Below, one piece after another: positions 10,009 to 61,236 of a stretch of 64,000 nt of DNA (within the stretch, counting starts at the first letter, position 1; each line of letters begins with the position of its first letter). The position numbers and the translations under genes were made by a program. The stretch lies in NCBI GenBank assembly GCA_013416635.1, contig JACCHT010000002.1:620001-684000 (forward strand), in the 5' to 3' direction. Under the pieces are notes generated by a model, which was not told the DNA's origin, did no database searches, and worked only from the letters and a program-made list of their open reading frames with translations. This DNA comes from Candidatus Thiodubiliella endoseptemdiera. GTDB lineage: Bacteria > Pseudomonadota > Gammaproteobacteria > PS1 > Pseudothioglobaceae.

Positions 10009-10095
10009 GCCCGGGTGGTGAAATTGGTAGACACACAGGACTTAAAATCCTGCGCCTTCATCGGCGTGCCGGTTCGATTCCGGCCCCGGGCACCA
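10009..10095 (+). tRNA. tRNA-Leu (anticodon UAA)
   Basis: An 87-base tRNA with acceptor arms GCCCGGG and CCCGGGC, an encoded CCA end, a long type II variable arm, the GGTTCGATTCC T-loop, and anticodon stem CAGGA/TCCTG enclosing CTTAAAA (anticodon TAA). A terminator follows directly. Confidence 0.95.
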
Positions 10096-10101
10096 TATAT
10101 T

Positions 10102-10135
10102 AAAAAAAAGCCTGCATTATTGCAGGCTTTTTTTT
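10102..10135 (+). terminator. Rho-independent terminator after tRNA-Leu
   Basis: GCCTGCA / TGCAGGC stem with a TTAT loop, an A run before it and a nine-T run after it. It can act in both directions. Confidence 0.85.
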
Positions 10136-10141
10136 GGAGTA

Positions 10142-10176
10142 AACCCATTGACAAGGTCGAACCTTGTCAATGGGTT
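10142..10176. repeat. REP-like palindrome 1 (downstream of Y1 transposase)
   Basis: A perfect 16-bp stem, AACCCATTGACAAGGT and its complement, around a CGA loop. It reaches the stop codon of the Y1 transposase gene. The inner TTGACAAGGT arm recurs at 10645, 10840 and 10872. Confidence 0.85.
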
Positions 10177-10825
10177 AGAACTCAAAGTCTTTGAGGGATA
10201 GAATGATATTTTTATTGTTTGCAAATGCAATAGATGCTTGTTTGATGTATTTTTTATACTCATTTAAGCCGTTAGACTCACAAATAATGTTGTCAATCTC
10301 AGTTTGGCTGCAAATACCATCGCCAAAATCCGTGTCTAAATATTCCGATAAGCTTGATTTAACTAAATTCTTATTAGCATCAATTTTGTGATGCTTGTGA
10401 TTTAGATTCACATAAGCAGATAGCGTTGGCAACGCAAAATCGCCATCAAGATGATTAGATTTGAACTTGCCTTGAAACAAAGCCCCATTTCTGCCCTCTT
10501 GTTTATTAAAAAACATTGTATAAGAAGTACCTAATTTTTGCATAAATTTTGCAATGCCATTATCCACATTTTGTTTTAATAATAAATGAAAATGATTTGG
10601 CAACAAAGCATAAGCAACAACAATAACCAACTTCTCATCTCCATTGACAAGGTCGAACCTTGTCAGGGATTGGCCTTTGGATTTGGAGGTGGTATTGAGC
10701 AGGGGGATACTTTTGAAAAAGTAATTGAGTTGTTCTTTGTTGGAAAAAATGTTTCTCTTATCTACACCACGATTAAAGATATGGTAGTACTCGCCATTAG
10801 TTAAAGGTATTTTTCTTGTTCCCAT
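10175..10825 (-). CDS. REP-associated tyrosine transposase (Y1/HUH, TnpA_REP-like)
   Basis: A 216-residue single-strand DNA transposase of the RAYT type. The fold signature GEYYHIFNRGVDKRNIF is near residue 10, the HUH metal motif is in LLPNHFHLLLKQ near residue 90, and the likely nucleophile tyrosine is in GTSYTMFFNKQEGRNGALF. I placed the start at the MGTRKIPLT methionine because upstream codons are only palindrome sequence. A palindrome of the same family (10645-10665) lies inside the gene and encodes TRFDLVN in frame. The gene stands alone between a tRNA and a porin gene. Confidence 0.87.
   Translation of the reverse strand: MGTRKIPLTNGEYYHIFNRGVDKRNIFSNKEQLNYFFKSIPLLNTTSKSKGQSLTRFDLVNGDEKLVIVVAYALLPNHFHLLLKQNVDNGIAKFMQKLGTSYTMFFNKQEGRNGALFQGKFKSNHLDGDFALPTLSAYVNLNHKHHKIDANKNLVKSSLSEYLDTDFGDGICSQTEIDNIICESNGLNEYKKYIKQASIAFANNKNIILSLKDFEF
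10645..10665. repeat. REP-like palindrome 2 (inside the Y1 transposase gene)
   Basis: TGACAAGGT / ACCTTGTCA stem around CGA, lying inside the transposase reading frame and kept in frame. Confidence 0.85.
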
Positions 10826-10839
10826 AACTTGTATTATAA

Positions 10840-10894
10840 TGACAAGGTTCGACCTTGTCAAGGGTGGGGGATTGACAAGGTCGAACCTTGTCAA
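10840..10894. repeat. REP-like palindromes 3 and 4 (upstream of the Y1 transposase)
   Basis: Two copies of the TGACAAGGT stem. Copy 3 (10840-10860) has loop TCG; copy 4 (10872-10894) has loop CGA, so it is the opposite orientation. They are separated by AGGGTGGGGGA and bracket the promoter side of the gene. Confidence 0.85.
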
Positions 10895-56538: not shown

Positions 56539-57314
56539 AATAAATGGGGACAGAATAAATGGGGAGAATAAATGGGGACAGGCTACTTTTATCATAGTTT
56601 TTTCTTATTTTTTGGTCTTCCTCTAGCCTTTAGAGTTGACAGCAAACCATGCTTCTTTGCCATTTTTATAACCCAGTTTTCATTGCCAAGTGGTGCTTGT
56701 CTATTAATACTGTTTCTGATTTTATCTATTTCTTTTTTGAGTTTGTGGCGTATTGACATATTCCACCCAGTTATCTAGTTCTCCATAAGGCTTGTTCAAT
56801 ATCTTTCTATTTCTAAAAACTCTTTCTGATAATGACCCGTATTGCCAATCTTGTGCTGTTTTGCTTAAATCAGCCCTTAACGCATTAGCCTCTATATAGC
56901 GCATCAAAGTTAGATAATAACTGTCTTTTTCAACAATAAAACTTTTAAATCTACCTTGCCAAATATGTCCTGAGGTTTTGTTTTTCTTATGATAATAACG
57001 CACATGAGAAGTCATCACCCATTGCATAAATTTACTCAGACTATTTTCACCTTGTGGTACAAGTAATAAATGAAAGTGATTAGGCATTAGACAATAGGCG
57101 TGTAACTCAATATTCTCTCTTTCTAGCCCTGTTTTTAATAATTTTAGGAAAAACTCGTAATCATCCTCATCATCAAAAACTTGCATACGCATATTTCCTC
57201 TATTGATAATATGATAGATTCCGCCTTGGGTTTGACCTCTTGGTATGCGTGGCATTTTAGTGTTGGGGTAAAAGTGGGGAATTATATCATAAAAAGTAGC
57301 CTGTCCCCATTATT
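56539..57314 (-). mobile_element. Y1-transposase element, copy 1, with REP-like ends
   Basis: The left side has three spaced AATAAATGGGGA repeats ending GGGGACAGGCTACTTTT. The right side has the complement AAAAGTAGCCTGTCCCC followed by ATTATT. It encloses one HUH transposase gene. Near-identical to the element at 60.45-61.24 kb. Confidence 0.82.
56592..57255 (-). CDS. REP-associated tyrosine transposase, copy 1 (C-terminal frameshift)
   Basis: HUH single-strand transposase. Start MPRIPRGQTQGGIYHIINRG; HUH motif in CLMPNHFHLLLVPQGENS near residue 60; nucleophile region TSHVRYYHKKNKTSGHIWQG. Compared with copy 2 it has extra T in the run near 56735, so the protein stops at 56722 after QTQKRNR instead of continuing EIDKIRNSINRQAPLG to about 56592. 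The N-terminal catalytic part is intact. Confidence 0.85.
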
Positions 57315-60449: not shown

Positions 60450-61236
60450 AATAAATGAAATAAATGGGGACAAAATAAATGGGGACAGGCTACTTTTATC
60501 ATAGTTTTTTCTTATTTTTTGGTCTTCCTCTAGCCTTTAGAGTTGACAGCAAACCATGCTTCTTTGCCATTTTTATAACCCAGTTTTCATTGCCAAGTGG
60601 TGCTTGTCTATTAATACTGTTTCTGATTTTATCTATTTCTTTTTGAGTTTGTGGCGTATTGACATATTCCACCCAGTTATCTAGTTCTCCATAAGGCTTG
60701 TTCAATATCTTTCTATTTCTAAAAACTCTTTCTGATAATGACCCGTATTGCCAATCTTGTGCTGTTTTGCTTAAATCAGCCCTTAACGCATTAGCCTCTA
60801 TATAGCGCATCAAAGTTAGATAATAACTGTCTTTTTCAACAATAAAACTTTTAAATCTACCTTGCCAAATATGTCCTGAGGTTTTGTTTTTCTTATGATA
60901 ATAACGCACATGAGAAGTCATCACCCATTGCATAAATTTACTCAGACTATTTTCACCTTGTGGTACAAGTAATAAATGAAAGTGATTAGGCATTAGACAA
61001 TAGGCGTGTAACTCAATATTCTCTCTTTCTAGCCCTGTTTTTAATAATTTTAGGAAAAACTCGTAATCATCCTCATCATCAAAAACTTGCATACGCATAT
61101 TTCCTCTATTGATAATATGATAGATTCCGCCTTGGGTTTGACCTCTTGGTAGTTTGACCTCTTGGTATGCGTGGCATTTTAGTGTTGGGGTAAAAGTGGG
61201 GAATTATATCATAAAAAGTAGCCTGTCCCCATTATT
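60450..61236 (-). mobile_element. Y1-transposase element, copy 2, with REP-like ends
   Basis: AATAAATGGGGACAAAATAAATGGGGACAGGCTAC-type repeats on the left (two units) and AAAAGTAGCCTGTCCCC plus ATTATT on the right. Internal sequence is almost identical to copy 1. Confidence 0.82.
60499..61177 (-). CDS. REP-associated tyrosine transposase, copy 2 (N-terminal duplication frameshift)
   Basis: Same protein as copy 1 with an intact C-terminus (INRQAPLGNENWVIKMAKKH, then GLLSTLKARGRPKNKKKL). Near 61140-61165 a 16-base tandem duplication (the TTTGACCTCTTGGTAG unit) shifts the frame after MPRIPRGQT. An internal ATG at 61098 (MRMQVFDDEDD) could give a 199-residue protein that lacks the first strand but keeps the HUH motif. 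Confidence 0.85.

Follow-up and report, generated by a model that had tools for sequence, protein, structure and literature searches.

The window, a 64,000-nt stretch of the genome of Candidatus Thiodubiliella endoseptemdiera, contains on its minus strand a coding sequence at 10175-10825 (216 aa plus stop, with the ATG at 10825) whose product is a RAYT-like (TnpA-REP-like) HuH/Y1 single-strand DNA transposase. The protein matches PF01797, and the best PDB match of its AlphaFold2 model (pLDDT 89) was 4er8, the E. coli RAYT with bound REP hairpin (Foldseek E 8.6e-6; 9% identity over the aligned part), followed by the IS608 and ISDra2 transposases; a sequence profile search against the PDB returned no relevant match. 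Both the HuH motif H78-F79-H80 (10586-10594, minus strand) and the catalytic tyrosine Y138 (10412-10414, minus strand) are invariant in 83 of 83 relatives. The closest named relatives belong to SUP05/Thioglobus, Bathymodiolus symbionts and Patescibacteria, and four members of the family scored 24-30 bits with NCBIfam NF047646 (REP-associated tyrosine transposase), well below the curated cut-off of 80 bits, indicating a distant branch. The gene is present in single copy, the other Y1 genes of the genome reaching no more than about 43% identity over the matched region. Several similar PF01797 genes occur separately from it, including those at 56887-57219 and 60793-61125 of the window (both minus strand), which are about 39% identical to the RAYT, with the top score equal in four copies.

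The original prediction had described a Y1 transposase of the RAYT type with its own palindromes, and both the nature of the protein and the flanking and in-frame position of the palindromes were borne out. Four copies of the TGACAAGGTtcgACCTTGTCA palindrome cluster on the gene, and no further copy was found in the window. The copy at the stop (10142-10176; pattern match at 10149-10169) overlaps the stop codon and forms the perfect 16-bp stem that had been predicted, with arms at 10142-10157 and 10161-10176 and a 3-nt loop. The internal copy (10645-10665; 9-bp stem, 3-nt loop) lies in frame at codons 54-61 and encodes LTRFDLVN, which includes the predicted peptide TRFDLVN. Its sequence equals the core of the downstream copy, and the two have 25 nt in common, extending beyond the palindrome. 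Upstream of the gene, a proximal copy (10840-10860), with a loop orientation opposite to that of the internal and downstream copies, and a distal copy (10872-10894; pattern match at 10873-10893) constitute a REPIN-like inverted pair of 22 bp copies spaced by 10 nt (fold of -25.5 kcal/mol), in agreement with the opposite orientations noticed originally. The start at an upstream TTG given in the list of open reading frames was rejected because homologues begin at the ATG at 10825, and consequently both upstream palindromes are non-coding. As single strands, all four copies fold far more strongly than shuffled sequences (z -5.4 to -11.7). On the other side of the stop, the interval 10009-10135 contains a tRNA-Leu (taa) and, after it, a symmetrical terminator hairpin flanked on either side by runs of A and T; the convergent RAYT gene could use this hairpin as well.

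The proximal upstream palindrome coincides with the -35 box and spacer of a predicted sigma-70 promoter (TTGACA-17-TATAAT, 10833-10861, minus strand) that matches the consensus at 12 of 12 positions. The ATG begins 8 nt after the -10 box, and a leaderless mRNA is therefore predicted. This arrangement recurs in the relatives: in 54 of 82, against 15.8 expected, the interval from -26 to -7 contains a -10 box. Nearly all of these boxes begin between -15 and -10, and in most cases the palindrome is centred 10-29 bp further upstream. Genome-wide, a -10 box stands in register with just 1 of the 51 palindrome strand-copies, which is about the number expected by chance, indicating that the promoter belongs to the gene and not to the repeat; a role of the REP as a general mobile -35 element was discarded on the same count. 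The earlier proposal that the TTGACA in each arm resembles a -35 box holds for the promoter-proximal copy and is literally true for no other, and the promoter overlap fits the idea of a domesticated regulatory hairpin that had been put forward with it.

The genome-wide count suggested by the original prediction yielded 24 exact copies and 2 with one mismatch (about 26 in total) in the 2.37-Mb genome, with zero matches to a reversed control pattern. The palindrome is dispersed; its copy number is 26 in this genome and ranges from 3 to 34 in relatives, compared with the more than 100 usual under the broad TnpA-REP criterion. Besides the RAYT gene, the only recognisable gene with the palindrome inside is that of GcvP (glycine dehydrogenase), which carries two copies as an in-frame inverted pair of 19+7+19 nt (L017:2053-2097; G000:C9, about 294650-294700). 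The GcvP linker that holds the pair is hypervariable and of similar length in 11 relatives, so passive insertion into linkers does occur. Three intergenic copies (L002, L019 and L020) are preceded by the same repeated sequence, reading HSNGIEGTLRWKF and then a stop, which suggests that some copies spread via duplication of a longer segment.

A scan of 90 related genes for upstream, downstream and internal palindromes found the same design repeatedly. Matching upstream and downstream palindromes were present in 51 of the 90 genes, against 3.1 expected when downstream regions were swapped between genes, and 34 internal palindromes matching the flanks of their own gene were detected in 32 genes, against 2.3 genes expected on swapping. 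Under the criterion for an internal match the 8-nt arm could contain up to 2 mismatches, yet the 34 are all free of them, and each is identical to a flank copy, in either orientation, over a 17-nt core that includes the loop; 27 distinct cores were counted among them. Internal stems of 8 or more were observed in 37/90 genes vs 6/90 after codon shuffling, and this control, together with the swaps, ruled out chance palindromes. An assembly artefact is unlikely, since single-contig genomes (G002, G011) show the pattern, as do many independent assemblies. Ten more internal palindromes failed the criterion, two of which, in gene L126, nearly match its flanks, and L043 (from G011), L092 and L134 were added by a subsequent search that tolerated mismatches. 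Decayed copies in palindrome-free relatives were limited to a few (L043, L092, L134, L135 and perhaps L113). The downstream palindrome of the relatives lies at about -8 to +20 of the stop. The orientation bias between internal and promoter copies was weak (21 vs 11), and an orientation rule between copies was dropped on those numbers.

The anatomy and the recurrence of this three-part hairpin design are solid. Judged by comparison of sequences, hairpins that differ from relative to relative appear in the same arrangement in two distant bacterial groups (SUP05/Bathymodiolus symbionts and Patescibacteria), and the internal copy appears to be a recurring built-in part rather than a one-off accident. 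It is absent from many relatives and hence not essential. The original prediction had regarded an internal palindrome as unusual for a RAYT, which does not agree with its presence in 32 of 90 relatives. The comparison of orthologues that it proposed found close relatives in which the peptide is missing or another palindrome occupies its position, and none with the same peptide encoded by non-palindromic DNA. A RAYT homologue with the same three-part design, at L041:1400-2250 (G007; also L074, from the Bathymodiolus heckerae symbiont BHECKSOX2), has a frameshift near the gene start. In genome G002, the palindrome cognate to the RAYT of G011 occurs as exact copies at C1:896865 and 1470118, and the G002 RAYTs seen here carry other palindromes.

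Internal copies occupy two places. Site A is the loop that connects helix 30-43 to the strand preceding the HuH motif, and site B follows the catalytic tyrosine; the internal copy of the window gene is at site A. The internal copy changes together with the flanks. Genes L123 and L130 carry ACTTGGAAAC hairpins at site B as well as on each flank, whereas their near relative L138 has ACTTGGAAGT-type hairpins on its flanks and a site B changed likewise, with one mismatch. In the clade of L102, L107, L108 and L125, stems or loops vary, in every case with the same change in the internal copy. The natural reading of these sequence changes is that the hairpins co-evolve with the RAYT, which is consistent with what had been published on flanking REPs (PMC2817692). 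G011, a complete genome of 2.8 Mb, contains 5 palindrome copies, 3 of them on its RAYT, and G105 contains the RAYT-matching palindrome 4 times, all within 1.3 kb, so that a large repeat pool is not needed for the internal match. G105, a Patescibacterium, has in addition a second hairpin family, ACTTGGTAGTCGGAGTACCAAGT, on C1, C4 and C7, some copies of which are 24 bp apart.

In-frame internal REPs as such are already known from another RAYT subclass. The expectation that RAYTs have REPs only at their flanks had been superseded in 2018, when Quentin et al. described REPs lying in frame within tnpA-REP genes as a feature unique to subclass 2.4 (PMC6006769). Those REPs have GT[AG]G feet and are located in the interval from HuH to Y, and the authors viewed them as insertions that do no harm because the region is peripheral. 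The window family resembles subclass 2.4 (RAYT group 4) in that REPs flank the gene and lie in frame within it, but its internal sites are before HuH or after Y, and its HuH-Y interval has a median of 58 aa (range 55-62), compared with a median of 88 aa in subclass 2.4. Enrichment of GT[AG]G feet was absent (9/318 feet, 2.8%, vs 3.5% in random windows). This foot is missing also from subclasses 2.6 and 3 of the superfamily (PMC6006769), and it is therefore not defining for the broad TnpA-REP family. With the exception of the internal REP, the window family fails the subclass 2.4 features that were tested. The data set of PMC6006769 presumably predates most Patescibacteria genomes, and a literature search with partial coverage of subscription journals found no paper on REPs in RAYTs of this branch. 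The group 3 TnpA-REP/REPtron of Stenotrophomonas maltophilia shares with the window family a cognate site that consists of a short, perfect palindrome whose loop is 3 nt long, and differs from it by a GTAG foot; no internal copies are described in the text consulted (PMC8266576).

Among other systems, the E. coli TnpA-REP (4er8) is the closest solved fold and likewise a HuH/Y1 enzyme acting on REP hairpins, and IS200/IS605 elements (IS608, ISDra2) have in common with the window family the HuH/Y1 fold and hairpins at both gene ends. E. coli REPs, unlike the window palindrome, are long and bulged, carry GTAG and number hundreds of copies. IS200/IS605 elements are multi-copy insertion sequences, whereas the window family is represented by a single copy and diverged relatives per genome. 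Rickettsia palindromic elements are much longer and reside in unrelated host genes, and we know of no transposase of their own. As in the window family, their palindromes lie in frame within coding genes, according to a work cited in PMC3733652.

On these data, it is probable, though far from certain, that the gene is a RAYT in a REPtron arrangement whose co-evolving cognate hairpins at the promoter, in a coding loop and at the stop form a regular component of the gene. For the internal copy, autoregulation or auxiliary binding is the preferred reading, and passive insertion into a linker its main rival. This rival proposes that the RAYT scatters its hairpin, that the hairpin survives where a flexible loop tolerates it, that identity to the flanks reflects recent insertion, and that the internal copy is functionless. 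It would agree with the nature of sites A and B, both hypervariable loops: the linker at site A that contains the internal palindrome (residues 45-65; 10631-10693, minus strand) lies between helix 30-43 and strand 67-74 and is predicted to be disordered, with pLDDT <50 at residues 50-56 in the AlphaFold2 model. It would agree as well with the patchy presence of the internal copy on the tree, where at least 16 state changes were counted at site A and at least 5 at site B; this was a quick tree, built without the palindrome columns, in which gain and loss are indistinguishable and many forks are weak. Its best support is the in-frame inverted pair in the variable GcvP linker of the same genome, and it corresponds to the interpretation given by Quentin et al. 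(2018) for subclass 2.4 (PMC6006769).

Nevertheless, the distribution and length of the internal copies argue against passive insertion. Linkers with and without a palindrome are of equal length (median 26 aa), which indicates that the palindrome replaces linker sequence without lengthening it and is not a plain insertion; an empty site denoting a clean insertion was found in relatives neither for RAYT nor for GcvP, both loops being length-neutral. Internal copies reach densities of 3.4 per kb at site A and 1.7 per kb at site B, compared with 0 copies in 20 kb of the remaining coding sequence of these genes and 0.07 copies per kb in the flanking 2.5 kb on either side, intergenic DNA included, where they are about 40 times rarer than in the loops; given the kinship of the genes, these densities and counts are not independent trials. 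The near emptiness of the flanking 2.5 kb gives no support to local hopping of REPs around the gene. Moreover, internal copies are kept in genomes nearly devoid of other copies (G011, G105), and they last in clades and yet shift in step with the flanks. The original alternatives of a tolerated self-insertion or a domesticated hairpin thus fared differently: the promoter overlap fits the latter, whereas the former, in its simple form, is made unlikely by the unchanged loop length and by the concentration of the copies in two loops and not in nearby DNA generally. All in all, we regard passive insertion as an unlikely, although serious, explanation of the internal copy.

A less probable explanation, to which we give little credit, is gene conversion or template switching between the flanking and internal hairpins of the gene, as a neutral by-product of replication with no role for the protein. 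The exact identity of the copies, the length-neutral replacement and the 25 nt shared by the internal and downstream copies of the window gene are compatible with it, but it leaves unexplained the arrival of the first copy in the loop, the patchy state changes on the tree and the tracking of RAYT identity by flank and internal copies in every lineage. Finally, retention of the internal segment for its peptide, with an incidental palindrome, is highly improbable and mostly refuted by the variety of reading frames and wholly different peptides among genes, which shows that the DNA and not the peptide recurs, and by the predicted disorder of the region, despite the conservation of KLQGRTL in L113 and L114 where the L113 palindrome has decayed.

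Returning to the preferred reading, the protein probably recognises its own hairpins, and we infer that those at the promoter, in the coding loop and at the stop would be recognised alike. As either the specificity of the protein or the repeat drifted, all copies would follow, either because the transposase re-copies or converts them, or because binding is selected for, or both. A protein bound at the promoter palindrome would block RNA polymerase. With less certainty, the protein on the promoter hairpin may turn the gene down, and the internal and terminal hairpins might act as extra binding sites in cis, by analogy with the auxiliary lac operator inside lacZ. Autoregulation of the RAYT through its own hairpins is likely. 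The TnpA-REP proteins studied act on single-stranded hairpins and on one strand or orientation only (PMC8266576), and this counts against repression via a double-stranded promoter site. The most specific version, in which the internal hairpin would be a functional recognition site within the coding sequence and the RAYT would bind its own gene at promoter, loop and stop, is put forward tentatively, as a possibility more doubtful than the general arrangement.

The long retention of RAYTs and their benefit to the cell are a standing question in the field. The matched sites at promoter, loop and stop, available in 27 natural versions, may allow the code between protein and hairpin to be read by comparison alone, and they make two ideas directly testable, namely RAYT autoregulation via its own REP and the concerted change of a binding site that lies within the gene for its own binder, in the coding sequence. 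If the internal site were functional, specificity, operator and coding sequence would be locked together and would have to change at once, and a loop of the protein would be written by the DNA-binding specificity of that same protein.
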